From an uncultured Lachnospiraceae bacterium (GTDB lineage: Bacteria; Bacillota_A; Clostridia; Lachnospirales; Lachnospiraceae): a DNA stretch of 54,403 bases. The DNA lies in contig CANOBT010000022.1 in assembly GCA_947564305.1 (NCBI GenBank), positions 1 through 54,403 of the forward strand, written 5' to 3'. Positions 2,137 through 54,403 of the stretch are shown one piece after another (positions within the stretch are counted from its first letter, which is position 1; the number at the start of each line of letters is the position of its first letter). The position numbers were made by a program, and so were the translations under genes. Under the pieces are notes generated by a model, which was not told where the DNA came from, searched no databases, and was given only the letters and a program-made list of their open reading frames with translations.

Positions 2137-3549
2137 TTAAATATCTATCACCTGACCCATCTCATGCCACTGACACCCACCCCATGTAGAATTTGCAATG
2201 CCATGATCCAAAAAGCCCATCCTCTGATACATTTTTACTTTAGATTGCAGGCATGTCAGCAGGATCATATGCCTTCCATTTTCACGTTCCCTGCAAAGAT
2301 ACTGATGCATCAGCTCCCGTGCCAGTCCCTGTCTGCGGTACTCCGGAAGTACATCCAAGCCTAAAAGCATGATATTCTTTCCATCCGGGTCATGAAGGTT
2401 CACATCTGTAAAAAATTCATCCCGGAAGGTACTCTCATCTGTCGCAAGACCATTTAAAAATCCGGCCACTTTACCCGTATGCCTGTCCACTGCTGCCAGA
2501 AAAAACTCCGGCGCCTTTTCGACACGCTCATACATGCTTTTTCTGGAACACGCTTCATTGGGCGGAAAACAGATCTGTTCAATCTCCGCAGCCTGTTCAG
2601 CCTCGTCAGAACGAATATTCCGGAACTCAAATTTTTCATGCAGATTCCTTTCTGCCCCTTTGCCTGTCCGTGTCAGAAAATGCTCCAAATATATCATTGC
2701 AATTGCATCATGCTTCTTGGTAAATCCATGCTGTCCATTCTTAATTCGATAGAAGAGAACCTTTCTTGTCAGTTTTTTTCTTTTTGTCTCTTCCATATAT
2801 GTCAAATACGCCTGCTTCGAATATTTCAGATCCACAATCCGGTCGCTTTTACCGTGGACAATCAGAATATCTCCAGGAAATTCTTTTATCTCCTGATAAG
2901 GGTCTAAATCAATCACATCCTCCACATAGCATTTTCCCAACTTCATCGGACCGCACTGAATAAACTCCGGAATATGATGCGGGTCGAATCTTGCAAACAT
3001 CATTTTTCCCGCTTTTGCATCATCTGGAATACAAAGTGCGGGATAAAACAGGATCAATTTTGATATTTGCCCCTTTAATCTGGAAGCAGTGATTGCAGAT
3101 ACAAACCCGCCCTGACTGCAGCCCATTAAAACAATCCTTTGCGGGTTCACATATGGTCTGCCTTTAGCATAATCAATGACAGCCTCCAGATCCTTTACTT
3201 CTGTCATAACTGACATTTCTGTTGTTTTCCCGTCGCTCTTCCCGTTGGCCACACAGCCGCCGCAAAAATCAAAGCAATATGCAGCATATCCAAGTCCCGC
3301 TATTTTTTTAGCATAGCGGCGCACCGTATCCTGAGAAGCCATGAAGCCATGGCTGACAATGGCAATCGGAAGATTCTCTCCCTCAGCTCTATACTCGGTC
3401 CCGCGTATTATAAGGGAATCCCTTTGGCAGGTAAACGTAGATTCTAAAATTTTGTCTTTTTTCTTATTTGTTAATCGAAACAAATTTTTCACCCCTTTGC
3501 AGATGGATATATTTTTGAATCTCTTTGTATATATGCCCATAAGATACAT
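2137..3549 (-). CDS. Alpha/beta hydrolase fused to a GNAT acetyltransferase domain
   Basis: A 470-residue two-domain protein. Residues about 40-300 are a serine hydrolase: an oxyanion-type SHGFMAS segment, the nucleophile elbow GCSQGG, an acid candidate in HGKSDRIVD and a histidine in NGQHGF. Residues about 310-470 are a GNAT N-acetyltransferase domain with the acetyl-CoA loop pattern YRRQGLARELM. Each domain alone is common; the fusion is the notable point. There is no signal peptide, so it should act in the cytoplasm, and no substrate can be assigned. The start is uncertain: the first ATG is only 3 nt from AAAGGG, the ATG at 3540 is better spaced, and a TTG inside the frame follows AAAGGGGTG. 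Confidence 0.85.
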   Translation of the reverse strand: MYLMGIYTKRFKNISICKGVKNLFRLTNKKKDKILESTFTCQRDSLIIRGTEYRAEGENLPIAIVSHGFMASQDTVRRYAKKIAGLGYAAYCFDFCGGCVANGKSDGKTTEMSVMTEVKDLEAVIDYAKGRPYVNPQRIVLMGCSQGGFVSAITASRLKGQISKLILFYPALCIPDDAKAGKMMFARFDPHHIPEFIQCGPMKLGKCYVEDVIDLDPYQEIKEFPGDILIVHGKSDRIVDLKYSKQAYLTYMEETKRKKLTRKVLFYRIKNGQHGFTKKHDAIAMIYLEHFLTRTGKGAERNLHEKFEFRNIRSDEAEQAAEIEQICFPPNEACSRKSMYERVEKAPEFFLAAVDRHTGKVAGFLNGLATDESTFRDEFFTDVNLHDPDGKNIMLLGLDVLPEYRRQGLARELMHQYLCRERENGRHMILLTCLQSKVKMYQRMGFLDHGIANSTWGGCQWHEMGQVIDI

Positions 3550-3687
3550 TATCCCTTTTATTGTATCACTGCAATAGCCTAATGAAAAGATACAAGTTAC
3601 TGTTTGCAGAGCTGTGCATTCTGCAGCCAGTTAGGCCGTACACTATAACAGATACAATAATTATACAAAAAACACTAAAAATATGCG

Positions 3688-3717
3688 TTTCAAAAGTAAT
3701 TCCAGATAACGTATAAT
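3688..3717 (+). promoter_or_regulatory. Probable promoter of the GH79-like gene
   Basis: A perfect TATAAT at 3712-3717 lies 33 bp before the start codon. The best -35 candidate, TTTCAA at 3688-3693, is weak (18-nt spacer), which would fit an activator-dependent promoter. Confidence 0.45.
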
Positions 3718-3749
3718 TGTAAAAAACAGGAAGAAAGGAGAAATAAACA

Positions 3750-5285
3750 ATGTCTCAATCAATCAAAGTGGCTTTAAATACATTGAAGCCACTCCGCGAA
3801 ATCAATCCGATGATGATGTCCTACAACGTAGAGTTTGCCGAAGTTACCGGCGGCACATTCTGGAAAGCCTACACGCCGGAGCAGGTAGCCGGAACCGAAG
3901 AATTTTATGTGGAGCCTACCTCAGAAGGTATTGCAGCTATGTACAAAGATTTAATGCAGGTGTACCCACCGATTAATCTGTATAATGAAAAACTGCGCAG
4001 CCTGGCAAAAGCACTGGGCCCTGTGTGGGTCCGCGTTTCTGGCACTTGGGCAACAAAAACGTATTATGATTTTGACGGAACAACAAAGGGACAGGTTCCG
4101 GAAGGTTATCTGAACGTATTGACAAAAGAACAGTGGATCGGTGTTCTGGATTTTGTAAAAGCAATCGGTGCAAAGCTGATTGTTTCCGTCGCGAACTGTC
4201 CCGGACTCCACACTGCAGAAGAGCCCTGGAATCCGTCGGAAGCTGAAAAGCTGTTTTCACTGAGCAAGGAATACGGAGTTCCAATCAATGCAGCCGAATT
4301 TGCAAATGAACCAAACATGATGGCAGATACCGGATTCCCGGAAGGATATACGCCTGCACATTACCGCCGCGATCAGGATTTATTCTTCAAGTGGCTGCGG
4401 GCAAATTATCCTGACTGTATCTGTGTCGGCCCAAGCACGACCGGCGGGGATAACATCACGTTTGGCAAAGGCAGCCCTGACGGACAGGCCGGCGGCGGAA
4501 TCGAGCAGATTGCAGCCGAAACCTGCAACTGTGCCGACTTACTGGATGGAACAGAAGAACCTTTGGATGTATTCAGTTATCATTATTATAACGGTGTTTC
4601 GGAGCGTCTTGCATCTGTCATGCCGTCAGGACACTGGCTTGCCGAGGACGCAGTCACAGAACCTTATCTGGATACTGCCCTGAGTTTTGCCCATACCTAT
4701 GCACCAATGCGTGATAAATACTGCCCGGGCGGGGAAATGTGGGTAACGGAATCCGGAGATGCCGGCGGCGGCGGTGACACATGGGCTTCTACTTATCTGG
4801 ATGTTTTCCGTACCCTGAATGAACTTGGCGGTTTTGCCTCCATCACAAACGGCGTAATCTTCCATAACACGCTTGCCTCCTCTGATTATGGATTCCTTGC
4901 AAGAGAAGTGTTCGACCCACGTCCGAATTATTTTGCAGTCCTGTTGTGGAACCGTCTGATGGGCACTACGGTGTATGATTCAGAAGAACCCATCCGTACG
5001 GGAGCACATGTATATGTACATTCCAGAAAAGATGGAAAAGACGGAGTAGTCTATCTGATTATCAATAATTCGTTATCGGATTCTACTACCGTTGAACTGC
5101 CAAAAGAGGCTGAACGTTATACCCTGGCCGGTGAAGGCGGTAATGTACGCGCCACCGTAATGACTTTAAATGGTAAGCCGCTCGTTCTGGGAGAAAATAA
5201 TTCCCTGCCTGAAATGGAGCCATCCATACAGGCAGCAGGAAGAGTGGAACTTGCGCCCGGAACCTGTACGTTCTTTGTAATGTAA
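3750..5285 (+). CDS. GH79-like glycoside hydrolase (heparanase/beta-glucuronidase type), cytoplasmic
   Basis: A 511-residue protein behind an AAGGAG site 9 nt from the ATG. It has a TIM-barrel region with AEFANEPN, placing a probable acid/base at Glu187, and MWVTESGDAGG, placing a probable nucleophile at Glu334. A C-terminal beta domain follows. The segment PNYFAVLLWNRLMGTTVYDS resembles the end of the barrel in heparanase and other family 79 enzymes, which cleave beta-linked glucuronides. No signal peptide is visible, so the substrate would have to be imported or be a small glycoside. It is a single-gene unit closed by a strong terminator. Assignment to GH79 comes from motif recognition; a related clan A family cannot be excluded. 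Confidence 0.68.
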   Translation: MSQSIKVALNTLKPLREINPMMMSYNVEFAEVTGGTFWKAYTPEQVAGTEEFYVEPTSEGIAAMYKDLMQVYPPINLYNEKLRSLAKALGPVWVRVSGTWATKTYYDFDGTTKGQVPEGYLNVLTKEQWIGVLDFVKAIGAKLIVSVANCPGLHTAEEPWNPSEAEKLFSLSKEYGVPINAAEFANEPNMMADTGFPEGYTPAHYRRDQDLFFKWLRANYPDCICVGPSTTGGDNITFGKGSPDGQAGGGIEQIAAETCNCADLLDGTEEPLDVFSYHYYNGVSERLASVMPSGHWLAEDAVTEPYLDTALSFAHTYAPMRDKYCPGGEMWVTESGDAGGGGDTWASTYLDVFRTLNELGGFASITNGVIFHNTLASSDYGFLAREVFDPRPNYFAVLLWNRLMGTTVYDSEEPIRTGAHVYVHSRKDGKDGVVYLIINNSLSDSTTVELPKEAERYTLAGEGGNVRATVMTLNGKPLVLGENNSLPEMEPSIQAAGRVELAPGTCTFFVM

Positions 5286-49889: not shown

Positions 49890-50849
49890 TTATTGATGAA
49901 TTAATCTCTCCACTTCTTCCTTTTCCGGCATCGCGCGGATGGCGCCTTTTCTTGTCGTAACAATCGCAGCAGCAGCATTTGCAAAGGTGAGCATCTCTGC
50001 CAACTGTTCCTCTGTCAGATTTTCAAAATCATGCTCCAATATGTAGTTCAAAGAGCTTCCACAGAAGGTATCCCCTGCCCCTGTTGTTTCGATGGTTTCA
50101 CACTTGAAGCCGCCTCGCTCCACACGCATTCCTTTGTAATATGCACGGCTGCCGTCTTTTCCCATGGTCAAAAGGATTAACGGAATCTGATATTTCTCCT
50201 GCAAATAACGAATTCCTTCGTCATAGTCTTCCTTACCTGATACAAACTGAATCTCATTATCTGAAATCTTCAAAATATCGCAAAATTGGAAGCCATACTC
50301 CATCTGTTCCTTAGCCAGCTCCAAAGAACTCCAAAGCGGCGGACGCAGGTTCGGGTCAAAGGAAATCAAAAGGCCCTTATCCTTTGCTGCCTTAATTGCC
50401 TTTTTTGTTGCCTCACGCACACTGTCGTGAGTCATAGAAAGTGTTCCGAAATGGAACAGTCTGGACTCTGCCAAAAACTCTGGGTTCACTTCCTCTGCCG
50501 TAAGCATCATATCCGCTCCCGGATTGCGGTAGAAGGAAAATTCCCTGTCTCCATCCGGAAATGTATGTACAAATGCCAATGTTGTATTTACCTGTTCATC
50601 CACCAGCAGGTTTGAAGTATCAATACCTACATCATCCAAAGTTCCCCGAAGCAGGACGCCAAACTGGTCTTTTCCTACCTTTCCAAGAAATGCCGTTTTC
50701 TTTCCCATCTTATTTAAAAGCGCCAGTACATTACAGGGAGCTCCGCCCGGACATGCCTCAAACATACCGTTCCCCTGCTCACTCTCGCCGCTCATCGTAA
50801 AATCAATCAAAAGTTCCCCCATTGCAATCACATCATATTTTTTTCCCAT
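49890..50849 (-). CDS. Fructokinase (PfkB family)
   Basis: A 319-residue sugar kinase. The N-terminus MGKKYDVIAMGELLIDF, the sugar site PGGAPCNVLALLNKMGKKTAFLGKVG, and the catalytic ETTGAGDTFCGS are characteristic of bacterial fructokinases (ScrK/FrkB type), which make fructose-6-phosphate for glycolysis. Start follows AAAGGAG. It stands alone. Fructose could come from raffinose-family sugars or sucrose handled by the GH36 and amylosucrase-like enzymes of this window. A different ketose or nucleoside substrate is possible but less likely. Confidence 0.88.
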   Translation of the reverse strand: MGKKYDVIAMGELLIDFTMSGESEQGNGMFEACPGGAPCNVLALLNKMGKKTAFLGKVGKDQFGVLLRGTLDDVGIDTSNLLVDEQVNTTLAFVHTFPDGDREFSFYRNPGADMMLTAEEVNPEFLAESRLFHFGTLSMTHDSVREATKKAIKAAKDKGLLISFDPNLRPPLWSSLELAKEQMEYGFQFCDILKISDNEIQFVSGKEDYDEGIRYLQEKYQIPLILLTMGKDGSRAYYKGMRVERGGFKCETIETTGAGDTFCGSSLNYILEHDFENLTEEQLAEMLTFANAAAAIVTTRKGAIRAMPEKEEVERLIHQ

Positions 50850-51028: not shown

Positions 51029-52411
51029 TTATGATGCGCTTGCGGGAATCCGCAGTACCTGGCCGATGCTGAGCGCGTCGCTGGTAAGGCCGTTCAGGCT
51101 CTTAATGGCATCTACTGTCGTTCCAAATCTTCGCGAAAGGACCCACAAGGTGTCTCCCGAACGAACCGTGTATTCAAAATACGACGGCGATGAGGTTGTT
51201 GTCGTCGGAATTTTCAAAACCTGACCCACATGCAATACGTCGGTAGTCAATCCATTCAGATTTTTGATTGCATCTACTGTGGTATTGTATCTCTGAGAAA
51301 TCAGCCACAGAGTATCCCCTAAACGGACGGTATACTCAATGTATGGCGACGGTGCATCTGTGGTGGCCGGGATTTTGAGCACCTGCCCAATATTCAGCAG
51401 ATTACTTGTCAAACCATTCAGGCTTTTAATGGCATCTACTGTCGTTTTGTATCTCTGGGAAATCAGCCACAGGGTATCTCCGGGCTGAACAACATATTCT
51501 ATATAGCTGGTGTCTGGTCCTGGTTCCGGCATGGGAACATTATCACCAATTCCCAGGTACACATTATAAAGCGCCCTCCAGGTATCCGTTCCTACAATTC
51601 CATCCGGGTCTAATCCCCTCATTTTCTGGAATGCAATGACAGCCTGCTGTGTTCCGCTGCCGAAAATCCCGTCCTGGGATACACTTGGAATCGTGGGGTA
51701 GAATTCAGAAGCCATGTTCAAAAGATATTGCAGCGTAATCACGTCTGCCCCTCGCGAGCCCTGCCTTAACACTGAACTCGGAGGAACGGTTCCGATTCCC
51801 AAAGTCGTACCCTCACTGTTCAGCTCCGCCAGTCTTGCCACAGCAGTATAAATACTGGAAATTTTATACCAGGTAGATTTCCCCACGATACCATCCGCCG
51901 TCAGATTGAAGACGCTCTGAAATTTGGTGACCGCAGCATTGGTACTGCTGCCAAACACCCCTGCCTCATCGGTAATGGCAGGAATCGCAGGATAATTTCT
52001 CCGAATCCGGTTCAGGTAGGTCTGAATTGTCTGTACATCAAGCCCCCTGCTGCCAACCCGAAGGGGAGCGCCCGGATAAGAGGTCACAACACCGGTAATA
52101 ATATCTGTTTCCGCAATTTCTATATCATTTGGATAGTAGGTACGCAGAATCTGCAATGGATTTCTCCCTTGGTTTGCCAGGCTGACCGTCCCCCACTGTG
52201 ACATTCCGGAACAGGTTACAGTAGTTCCATTGCAAAAAGATGTAAAATATGGGACATTCTGTCCCTGTCTGCGTACATATTGATTAAAGATTTCATCCAC
52301 AATCCTGCTGATGGATGCGTAGATTGTCCGCCCATGCACATAAGCCTGGTCATAAGCTGTGCTGTTTGTAATATCAAAATTATAGCCGCGGCTTCGATAC
52401 CCCGAAACCAT
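51029..52411 (-). CDS. 3' part of an interrupted SpoIID-like/peptidoglycan-binding/LysM protein gene
   Basis: A 460-residue open frame. Residues about 8-105 match only the second half of a SpoIID/LytB-type domain (ending SGMSQWGTVSLANQGRNPLQILRTYYP, like the GMSQYGA...YYPG end of that family); the first half is missing. Two peptidoglycan-binding domains (about 115-190 and 215-290) and three LysM repeats follow (about 307-352, 360-405, 412-457, each with GDTLW and LNGLT). Such proteins bind cortex or cell wall peptidoglycan. The frame begins exactly where a serine recombinase gene ends and has no ribosome site for its first ATG, so this is the downstream piece of a gene split by an integrated element. 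Confidence 0.75.
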   Translation of the reverse strand: MVSGYRSRGYNFDITNSTAYDQAYVHGRTIYASISRIVDEIFNQYVRRQGQNVPYFTSFCNGTTVTCSGMSQWGTVSLANQGRNPLQILRTYYPNDIEIAETDIITGVVTSYPGAPLRVGSRGLDVQTIQTYLNRIRRNYPAIPAITDEAGVFGSSTNAAVTKFQSVFNLTADGIVGKSTWYKISSIYTAVARLAELNSEGTTLGIGTVPPSSVLRQGSRGADVITLQYLLNMASEFYPTIPSVSQDGIFGSGTQQAVIAFQKMRGLDPDGIVGTDTWRALYNVYLGIGDNVPMPEPGPDTSYIEYVVQPGDTLWLISQRYKTTVDAIKSLNGLTSNLLNIGQVLKIPATTDAPSPYIEYTVRLGDTLWLISQRYNTTVDAIKNLNGLTTDVLHVGQVLKIPTTTTSSPSYFEYTVRSGDTLWVLSRRFGTTVDAIKSLNGLTSDALSIGQVLRIPASAS

Positions 52412-54071
52412 CAGTCATTCGTGGTTGAGTAAAAAAATTATCAAGGTTAATTTTGAATTGAACAACGATTCTATCCTTTGTAACATTTATTCGATTAACC
52501 AGACGATCAACCAAAACTCTCTTTGTAGGAGTATCAGCACTTAGGAACACATCTTGCCAGGTAGGAATCTTCTCACGGAGATCTGTCCATTCGCTCATAG
52601 TAACAGAAGCATTTTTTAATTCCACCTCTTTCTGACGAATGATTTCTTCTTGATTTTCTGCCTGTTGCTTATGTTTATTGATGATTGCTACCAACTGCTC
52701 CAATGAAAGAGGATAATCACCAGTGATTGCATTTGCTATATTATCTTCCAGCACATCAATCTTTTTTCTGATATTAGCAAGTTCCTGTTTTTCCTTTTTC
52801 AGTTCGTTTTCCTTTGCCTTTTTATCCTTGCTTTGATTATACTCTATTTCCTGAAAAATATCTTCATTCTCTTGTAATTTTCCAATGTATTTTGCCAAAG
52901 CGTCAAATACAATAGGTTCAATCTTATCTGCTCTATATTGTTTTGATTTGTCATGTGGGACACCTTGCCATGCTGTCTGACATTTATAAATTGGGGTTTT
53001 ACTTGCTCTTTTTTCTCCAGTATCTTTAATTGTCCAGTAGCTGTATTTGCTCCCATTTACCATTTTGCATCCACAATATCCACAGTGGCAAACATCCACC
53101 AGTGCCAACATACCATCATTTCTCTTGATAACATTCACATCCTTATGTTCTAACTTCTTGATATATTTGTCACTCCTCTGTTTTCTTCTATCTTGTGTAC
53201 GATTCCATGTGTCACTGTCAATAATCATTATATCTTCGTTTGGTTCAGATGATGTAATCCATTCCTCACTGTCAAGTCTGTGATATTTGCCATTAACACG
53301 TTCTCTTCGCTTATATGCTGTATGCCCCGCATAGATTGGATTGGTGAGAATGCTTGTGATTGTTCCACTTTTCCATACATCTTTGGGTGCCATACTTTTA
53401 TATCTGTCATGCTCATTCAGTATGCGTGCTATTTTCTGTGAACCAAATTCTTTATTAAGTGAAAGGTCATAGATATATTTTACAACCTCTGCCTGTTCAG
53501 AAATAATGACCAAATGGTGTAATGCTCTTCCATGTTTGCTGATTTCACCAGACAACACCAGTTCATAACCAAAAGGGGCAGCACCACCCATGAACTTTCC
53601 TTTTTGTACAAGTTTCTGTGCTGTATCTTTTACTCTTGCCCCTGTGTCAGCACTGCTTTTCTCTGCATTTCCATACCTTAACGCCAACACCATCTGTCCC
53701 ATTATATCATTACTGCCAGGGGAAATGCAGTCATCTTTGACGGTGTATATATCGACACCATTCATTTTTAAATCCATGATATACTTGCCGATTTCCCATA
53801 ATCTTCGCCCAATTCTGTCATCCTTGTATGCTACAAGAATATCATACTCCCCATTCTGTGCATCCTTTAATGCTTCTTGAAGAATACTTCTGTCTGCCAC
53901 TGAATTTTTATAACCACTGTTGCTACCTTCAAAATATTCTTTTGTATCCAGTAACCAATCTTCGTGACGTTCAATGTATTCTTTTACAATCTGTCTCTGA
54001 ATTGACAAATCTCCATCTGCTTCTAATTGCTGATTAGAACTTACTCTCAAAAGCATTCGTACTCTTTTCAT
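52380..54071 (-). CDS. Large serine recombinase (site-specific integrase/excisionase type)
   Basis: A 563-residue protein: resolvase catalytic domain (1-150) with nucleophile Ser11 in LLRVSSNQQ and YKDDRIGR, a recombinase domain (about 175-275, GKFMGGAAPFGYELV to SILTNPIYAGHTAYKRR), a zinc ribbon (CHCGYCGCKM, later YKC), a long coiled coil (about 405-500) and a C-terminal segment. Such enzymes integrate and excise phages, transposons and the sporulation skin elements. AAGGAGG precedes the ATG. The sequence is more AT-rich than neighbouring genes, a sign of transfer. Its last codons overlap the interrupted gene, so its C-terminus is formed at the integration site. Confidence 0.93.
   Translation of the reverse strand: MKRVRMLLRVSSNQQLEADGDLSIQRQIVKEYIERHEDWLLDTKEYFEGSNSGYKNSVADRSILQEALKDAQNGEYDILVAYKDDRIGRRLWEIGKYIMDLKMNGVDIYTVKDDCISPGSNDIMGQMVLALRYGNAEKSSADTGARVKDTAQKLVQKGKFMGGAAPFGYELVLSGEISKHGRALHHLVIISEQAEVVKYIYDLSLNKEFGSQKIARILNEHDRYKSMAPKDVWKSGTITSILTNPIYAGHTAYKRRERVNGKYHRLDSEEWITSSEPNEDIMIIDSDTWNRTQDRRKQRSDKYIKKLEHKDVNVIKRNDGMLALVDVCHCGYCGCKMVNGSKYSYWTIKDTGEKRASKTPIYKCQTAWQGVPHDKSKQYRADKIEPIVFDALAKYIGKLQENEDIFQEIEYNQSKDKKAKENELKKEKQELANIRKKIDVLEDNIANAITGDYPLSLEQLVAIINKHKQQAENQEEIIRQKEVELKNASVTMSEWTDLREKIPTWQDVFLSADTPTKRVLVDRLVNRINVTKDRIVVQFKINLDNFFTQPRMTDGFGVSKPRL
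52395..52440. other. Predicted element/chromosome junction (attachment site region)
   Basis: In this stretch the recombinase frame (ending FGVSKPRL) and the SpoIID/LysM frame overlap in different phases, and base composition changes from AT-rich on the right to mixed on the left. Recombination should have taken place here. The exact core cannot be fixed without the other end of the element. Confidence 0.5.
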
Positions 54072-54095
54072 TATTTACCTCCTTTTTGTGTGGAT

Positions 54096-54120
54096 AGCAG
54101 GGGGAAGATTCCCCCCTGCT
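54096..54120 (-). terminator. GC hairpin between the small element gene and the recombinase
   Basis: AGCAGGGGG pairs perfectly with CCCCCTGCT around a 7-nt loop, right after the small gene's stop and 25 nt before the recombinase start. There is no T-run; it may limit or stabilise transcription. Confidence 0.45.
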
Positions 54121-54121
54121 G

Positions 54122-54358
54122 TTATGATAGTTTTTGAAGATATTCGTATAAAACAGTTGTCAGAACTTTTCTGACTTCACGTTTTGCCGCTTCGTCTTCT
54201 GCTGACTGCTCAGGAACTTCTAAAACTACTTCCATTCCGTCATTTGCAGTTTCGTATTGCACTATGTAGCTGTTACACATTGCATTACCCTCAATAGTTT
54301 CATTCTTTACGATTGTATGATTTTGCATACAATCATATTCATTGACAAATTTTTGCAT
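54122..54358 (-). CDS. Small protein of the integrated element, function unknown
   Basis: A 78-residue protein with a clear AAGGAGG ribosome site 8 nt from the ATG, 50 nt upstream of the recombinase gene on the same strand. The second half is acidic then helical (EQSAEDEAAKREVRKVLTTVLYEYLQKL). I do not recognise a family. The close tandem with the recombinase suggests a role in the element's maintenance or recombination control, but nothing in the sequence shows it. Confidence 0.7.
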   Translation of the reverse strand: MQKFVNEYDCMQNHTIVKNETIEGNAMCNSYIVQYETANDGMEVVLEVPEQSAEDEAAKREVRKVLTTVLYEYLQKLS

Positions 54359-54403
54359 GGCTATTACCTCCTTGGCTAAAAATTTGTCCTCCTAACACAT
54401 AAA

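Follow-up and report, generated by a model that had tools for sequence, protein, structure and literature searches.

A skin-like element probably splits a gene for a SleC-type spore cortex-lytic enzyme in an uncultured Lachnospiraceae bacterium

The stretch of DNA analysed here (hereafter the window) covers all 54,403 nucleotides of contig CANOBT010000022.1 of an uncultured Lachnospiraceae bacterium (assembly GCA_947564305.1). Close to its right end lies the 3′ part of a gene for a SleC-type spore cortex-lytic enzyme (sleC), and directly upstream of it a gene for a large serine recombinase. We consider it probable that this recombinase belongs to a skin-like element which splits sleC and is removed from it by programmed excision in the mother cell, sleC being a new target of such elements. 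A recurrent cut with both gene halves under selection suggests that the gene is restitched at spore formation. The window ends with the contig, and the 5′ part of sleC and the remainder of the element would lie to the right of position 54403. The initial annotation of this DNA had placed the recombinase directly at the gene break and in the same orientation, which is confirmed here, with the break at the boundary of a tryptophan and a tyrosine codon (W|Y) and with GT as the core. Its skin-like interpretation is supported by a 5′ half across the element in relatives, by selection, by matched cores and by sigma-K-like promoters. The features concerned are the following:

51029..52399, minus strand: 3′ part ("exon") of sleC, with the rest of a SpoIID-like domain, peptidoglycan-binding domains and three LysM repeats
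52399..52400, minus strand: presumed crossover dinucleotide of attR, GT, where the W and Y codons of intact sleC meet; most relatives share G|T
52401..52424, minus strand: arm of attR on the element side, CCACGAATGACTGATGGTTTCGGG, once part of attP; similar to the attP-like site in phage contig L136
52380..54071, minus strand: large serine recombinase of 563 amino acids (aa); PF00239, PF07508, PF13408; PHROG integrase
54122..54358, minus strand: small open reading frame (ORF) of 78 aa, candidate recombination directionality factor (RDF) by its position directly upstream of the recombinase
54359..54403, minus strand: final 45 bp of the contig, 5′ of the small ORF; any promoter farther out lies beyond

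The open frame 51029-52411 (minus strand) encodes 460 aa with two PG_binding_1 and three LysM stretches according to Pfam. Its ATG sits in element DNA, 4 codons ahead of the first residue that can be aligned to intact relatives. The 3′ part displays 81–88% identity with intact proteins of 665 aa, which continue upstream past the break, and 91.5% identity with P0002 across the first 200 residues. The closest intact proteins (P0002-P0008) measure 663–665 aa, and the remaining intact ones among the 120 listed 604–753 aa. This frame had initially been described as half a SpoIID-like domain followed by peptidoglycan-binding and LysM domains. Frame, peptidoglycan-binding and LysM assignments hold, whereas SpoIID is not called by Pfam in the window fragment, and the NCBIfam model SpoIID_LytB matches it weakly and under the cut-off (E 3.9e-5). 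The name SpoIID/LysM given to the target is better replaced by SleC-type cortex-lytic enzyme with LysM repeats, because residues 5-403 of the intact P0002 align to residues 62-477 of PDB entry 9h68 (spore cortex-lytic enzyme pre-pro-form, E 3e-78). In P0002, Pfam places SpoIID at residues 166-231, and the break after residue 209 falls inside it. The SleC architecture of N-terminal region, SpoIID-like catalytic domain and peptidoglycan-binding domain is present in intact P0002, with the added LysM part as the difference. The long sleC accordingly is of the SleC type, to which one more peptidoglycan-binding domain and three LysM repeats (two in some relatives) are added, and several genomes additionally contain a short sleC of about 420-450 aa. 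A SleC-domain match was present in at least 191 of 299 genomes. For Clostridioides difficile, excerpts of the literature describe SleC as the major cortex-lytic enzyme of germination (PMC6021603) and sleC as a member of the sigma-K regulon (PMC3789822). Judged by the intact homologue, the element sits in a predicted spore gene.

The position of the break follows from related loci taken from genome contigs, which represent the best 80 of 284 relatives. In 73 of these 80, an in-frame upstream continuation of at least 210 residues runs through ...TEW|YR..., and 7 loci from 6 genomes (L020, L021, L023, L029, L037, L042, L073) break exactly at W|Y. Some records are duplicates: L029 and L042/L107 are one metagenome-assembled genome with one split gene, L102 equals L021, and L088 equals L023. 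Besides the window, 5 of the 120 listed proteins begin at the W|Y break (P0020, P0070, P0071, P0089, P0110). Among them, P0020 shares 395 of 396 residues with the intact P0024 (605 aa), so that both states, split and intact, seem to occur in one species or in two very closely related ones. Genes for pfkB, a sensor kinase and NhaC follow an intact gene in L001, L004, L005 and L006 (the last from Schaedlerella arabinosiphila), with identities to the window neighbours of 91.5-92% for pfkB, 86-91% for NhaC and 62-81% for the sensor kinase. Since relatives read through the break and syntenic element-free loci are intact, sleC of the window is regarded as truncated at its 5′ side by the element. The comparison with element-free relatives that the initial annotation had proposed therefore comes out in its favour: loci with the same neighbours carry a longer, continuous gene and not a frame of the same length. 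The synteny anchor in the window is:

49890..50849, minus strand: PfkB-type sugar kinase, outside the element; a 91.5-92% identical kinase lies beside intact sleC-LysM

Both halves of the gene can be observed directly in relatives. Twelve distinct split genes display them collinear on one contig, with gaps of 1.4-21 kb between the halves:

Long sleC: G001 (L020), 1993 bp; G003 (L023, Lachnospiraceae bacterium 28-4), 1901 bp; G005 (L037), 1959 bp; G004 (L029), 3687 bp
Short sleC, gaps below 10 kb: G003, 1359 bp; G001, 5127 bp; G194, 3444 bp; G110, 9364 bp; IMG/VR contig L135, 7.4 kb
Short sleC, larger gaps: G227, 21.4 kb; G324, 18.1 kb; G354, 14.0 kb

Left out of these twelve pairs are genes with halves on separate contigs (long sleC of G002; short sleC of G005, G038 and G369) and the short sleC of G002 with its 5′ half only. 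A single half was present in the assemblies of G048 and G149 (3′ only) and of G210 (5′ only). Three elements of 1.9-2.0 kb appear to carry just the small ORF and the recombinase. The overlap at which a large serine recombinase acts comprises two bases. At W|Y, attL and attR have G|T in common in 11 of the 12 pairs with both halves on one contig; G227 has C|T on both sides, a matched change. A longer common stretch, ACGGAGTGG|TA or close to it, is found in G194, G110 and G354. Joining the halves in silico yields stop-free genes of 605 aa in all four long cases and of 418-422 aa in all five short ones. The window itself displays the attR side alone, and the shared cores (12/12) and stop-free joins (9/9) come from relatives. 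Partial matches were also noted in G138, G080, G082 and G169 (at contig ends or ambiguous), as was an apparent frameshift in G211.

Evidence for selection comes from G003 and G005, which contain the same element in long sleC. Between these two genomes, the recombinase has a synonymous divergence (dS) of 0.602 and a ratio of nonsynonymous to synonymous divergence (dN/dS) of 0.119. The two halves of long sleC have dS of 0.670 and 0.692 with dN/dS of 0.047 and 0.093, and the two halves of short sleC dS of 0.513 and 0.564 with dN/dS of 0.073 and 0.012. The available dN/dS controls from intact genes are more diverged, with a proportion of synonymous differences (pS) of 0.60-0.84 versus 0.44-0.45 in this pair. 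Element and gene halves were co-inherited by descent in G003 and G005 while both halves stayed intact.

The recombinase of the window contains Resolvase (PF00239) and Recombinase (PF07508) domains above the cut-off and a zinc ribbon (PF13408) at 24.0 bits versus a cut-off of 25.3 bits. Its C-terminal VSKPRL and stop codon (52380-52400) are encoded by the 3′ part of sleC in another frame. Among solved structures, the best match is the YokA recombinase of SPbeta (E 1e-9), which we take to be identical with SprA; the NCBIfam models CcrB (E 1.8e-26) and XisF (E 1.8e-24) match as well, both far under the cut-off. At E <= 1e-80, the recombinase is found in 12 of 397 genomes of the family, and it adjoins a sleC half in every one of these: nine times the 3′ half in sense orientation (in G324 about 1 kb off) and three times the 5′ half in antisense (G210, G227, G354). 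The C-terminal tails of the 120 best protein homologues, which are not independent because many are near-identical, agree with this arrangement. Twenty-three run into the 3′ half in another frame, 77 run antisense into the end of the 5′ half, and 20 fit neither pattern clearly, several ending early yet compatibly. These patterns, written after the tails had been seen, match none of 6000 internal 24-mers. The assignment of the large tail class (P0136 and others) to another gene was considered and rejected, because the DNA of G210, G227 and G354 shows these tails to be antisense readings from the end of the 5′ half of sleC. A tree displays two fully supported clades, recW (which includes the window) and recB, either of which targets both paralogues. 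This clade of recombinases is strongly tied to sleC. Neither the recombinase of the window nor that of G227 has a relative among viral contigs, and P0140 and the G003 recombinase have no match in annotated phage records at E 1e-60.

In 12 of 13 elements, the recombinase is immediately preceded by a similar small ORF, according to a loose pattern in which only M1, one P and one L are invariant, and the copies of other elements are 21-35% identical to that of the window. No Pfam or NCBIfam family matches it above the cut-off, and AlphaFold predicts a low-confidence hairpin and helix (predicted local distance difference test score 60). Known elements carry their RDF gene at the same place next to the recombinase, according to excerpts of the respective reports (PMC6957869, PMC5025042), and we infer that the small ORF acts as RDF. 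The distant elements L095 and L093 have a stretch TTTCAGACTGTCTTTCTCC...CAAAATCTAAAGGCATCAA in common ahead of the small ORF.

The region upstream of short sleC fits a skin-like element. The pattern AC-N16/17-CATAnnn(A/T) occurs in 12 of 14 upstream regions of short sleC, split and intact (missing in G324 and G038), versus a mean of 0.39 and a maximum of 5 in mononucleotide shuffles. Both this pattern and the following one were picked with the sequences in view, and some of the regions come from genomes related to each other. Sigma-K promoters of C. difficile consist of AC and a CATATAAT-like box, as given in an excerpt of (PMC3789822). Of 11 elements, 5 have the box CATA[AT]AA[TA] ahead of the small ORF; these five are recB elements in long sleC and not independent, and the window stops short of the corresponding position. 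Among 18 split-sleC genomes searched, 15 have a sigK-class match at E <= 6e-81. Matches of this strength are taken to represent sigK, since those of a weaker tier near 1e-73 seem to belong to a paralogue; G048 and G292 have no sigK-class match of that strength. The sigK-class match of G038 consists of two collinear pieces about 25 kb apart (G038:C1:57063-57341 and 82751-83101), perhaps a second skin-like element in one genome.

Based on this dataset, we infer excision and its timing as follows. During growth and in the forespore genome, sleC would be split and silent. In the mother cell, it would be transcribed from a sigma-K-type promoter, and the serine recombinase together with the small upstream protein would recombine attL with attR at GT. 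The element would leave as a circle, with TEW|YR rejoined in frame, and the rejoined enzyme would be produced and incorporated into the spore, to act at germination. The element would be transmitted via the split genome of the spore.

Several points weigh against this model. No sleC 5′ part was detected within the window (tblastn, E 1e-3). G006, which has the same type of recombinase and long sleC, yielded no 5′ half, and no small ORF within 368 bp of sequence. All four recW elements with enough sequence, and both recB elements in short sleC, lack a sigma-E/K-like box ahead of the small ORF. The sigK model matches in 18 of 18 split-sleC genomes, yet 11 of 14 control genomes likewise give matches, to other sigma factors, and only 3 of the 18 split-sleC genomes have a match above the NCBIfam cut-off. 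The test for selection consists of one genome pair, and dS is well above 1 in most other pairs. Finally, the element of the window extends past the contig and could be an ordinary prophage.

This last point leads to the alternative that the conserved sleC sequence serves as attB for an ordinary temperate phage or mobile element and that the host gene is inactivated, with no developmental excision. Such an element has a possible model in contig L136 (IMG/VR UViG_3300032007_000029, 145,752 bp), which encodes phage tail proteins and an integrase with 63% identity to P0140 and has an attP-like GT site CCACGAATAAGTGAATACAATGGGG|TACAGGAACAGCTACTCATTCGTGG whose ends are an inverted repeat; the attR arm of the window (CCACGAATGACTGATGG...) is similar when compared by eye, and the record has no sleC match. 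L136 possibly resembles an ancestor of the sleC elements. Several elements of 9-21 kb carry other genes and that of the window reaches past the contig end, and the nearly identical P0020 (split) and P0024 (intact) would likewise result from simple mobility. However, the elements of 1.9-2.0 kb show no gene besides small ORF and recombinase, co-inherited split genes are stop-free with purifying selection on both halves, and a sigK-class match is retained although both sleC paralogues are split in G001, G002, G003 and G005. We therefore regard an ordinary mobile element as unlikely.

It appears very unlikely that the two halves are translated apart and function as two polypeptides, so that DNA excision is unneeded. 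A possible start codon does precede the 3′ part in the window and in other broken loci, and separate translation would account for selection on both halves. These start codons, however, are element DNA and vary by element (ATG, GTG, TTG), none of the 7 long-sleC cases has a Shine-Dalgarno-like word within the 50 nt preceding the 3′ part, the cut lies within a single SpoIID-like domain, and the recombinase is itself under purifying selection (dN/dS 0.12 between G003 and G005). A dead, decaying insertion in a pseudogene, in a lineage no longer sporulating or needing sleC, is scarcely credible: the short-sleC element L101 with just a small recombinase fragment beside the 3′ half, the G210 assembly without a 3′ half and the lack of a strong sigK-class match in G048 and G292 would fit it, but joined genes are stop-free (9/9) with low dN/dS, the sigK-class match at E <= 6e-81 is present in 15 of 18 carriers, and a sigma-K-like promoter lies upstream of split copies.

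If programmed excision of a skin-like element is the correct reading, it may involve more than one locus. Both sleC paralogues are split in G001, G002, G003 and G005 (in G002, the 5′ half of short sleC stops at the break). No recombinase is encoded by the element in short sleC of G003, which holds one ORF of 397 aa, or by that of G001, which has three long ORFs, two of them with DUF5722; in these two genomes, the window recombinase finds its next best match at just E 1e-17 to 1e-18. Between the two genes of a genome, the element arms of attR beside the core agree at 13, 12 and 8 of 13 positions in G003, G005 and G001, and those of attL at 6, 5 and 8 of 13, respectively. Excision of the recombinase-free element in trans, by the recombinase of the other gene, is plausible from these sites, which do not prove it because agreement of the attL arms is weaker than that of attR. 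The recombinase-free short-sleC elements occupy L098 2929-4122 and L099 3884-8799. DUF5722 proteins are unexplained cargo common to the short-sleC element of G001 and the long-sleC element of L029.

In addition, sleC is cut at other positions. A second cut site, after CPNWM and before (T/S)QWG, is found in G022, G216, G231 and L135, and a third cut region near residue 165-173 in G292 and G198. The loci split at other positions beside other recombinases are L112 (G022), L116 (G231), L114/L115 (G216), L113 (G292) and L119/L120 (G198); these recombinases are distant from that of the window or not detected with it, the latter being named by eye. The listed protein P0013 (391 aa), a relative of long sleC, begins exactly at MSQWG, the second cut site, and may be another split gene. 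In L135 (IMG/VR UViG_3300035327_000291), sleC at 12320-4079 is cut twice: the W|Y cut contains an antisense recW-type recombinase, the CPNWM cut adjoins a different recombinase-like ORF (2470-4047), and the third piece of sleC lies off the contig.

Taken further, a dedicated recombinase clade may have made split sleC a standing feature of some Lachnospiraceae, with the recombinase-free element of the second paralogue excised in trans and with at least three cut sites, two of them at once in one record (three "exons"). Only the dying mother cell would then establish germination capacity, through coordinated DNA splicing at several loci. We give this extended hypothesis about an even chance.

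Should the proposed excision hold true, a cortex-lytic germination enzyme would come under the same control as other spore genes subject to programmed reconstruction, in gut commensals believed to be transmitted in spore form. Phage domestication seems to have reached an end point in the minimal elements of 1.4-2 kb and in those that lack a recombinase, and repeated cuts of sleC at different places make it directly testable why spore genes gather such elements. Annotation pipelines would label such genes as truncated and may wrongly score species as unable to germinate.

As far as excerpts of the literature report, the genes that undergo programmed reconstruction in spore formers are those for sporulation regulators, for the coat or envelope and for dipicolinate, the split genes on record being sigK, spsM, spoVFB, spoVR, gerE and yabG (PMC10747680, PMC6957869, PMC5595907). 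No report of a split sleC was found in the open-access full-text literature, a scope that leaves subscription papers outside. One of the closest known systems is the sigK skin of C. difficile and Bacillus subtilis, in which a large serine recombinase and a small RDF reside in a mother-cell gene and excision restores the frame; the RDF of the C. difficile skin, CD1234, has 72 aa and is under sigma-E/SpoIIID according to an excerpt of (PMC5025042). In contrast to the sigK skin, the target here is the germination enzyme gene sleC, and the elements go down to 1.4-2 kb, some of them without recombinase. SPbeta in spsM (SprA/YokA, SprB) is described, in an excerpt of (PMC6957869), as a unit attL-rdf-int-attR. 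The sleC elements would have the same kind of unit, with the small ORF as candidate rdf, YokA is the best solved match, and the 145.8-kb phage contig carries an integrase of the sleC clade, whereas gene and hosts are different and the smallest sleC elements display no phage structural gene. Excerpts of (PMC5595907; PMC10747680) describe gin in gerE of B. cereus, which is non-prophage-like, and yin in yabG of C. botulinum; these are likewise gene-intervening elements in mother-cell genes, but their targets are gerE and yabG, not sleC. XisF of the fdxN element in heterocyst-forming cyanobacteria and CcrB of SCCmec are also serine recombinases, acting in other hosts, on other targets and in other programmes.

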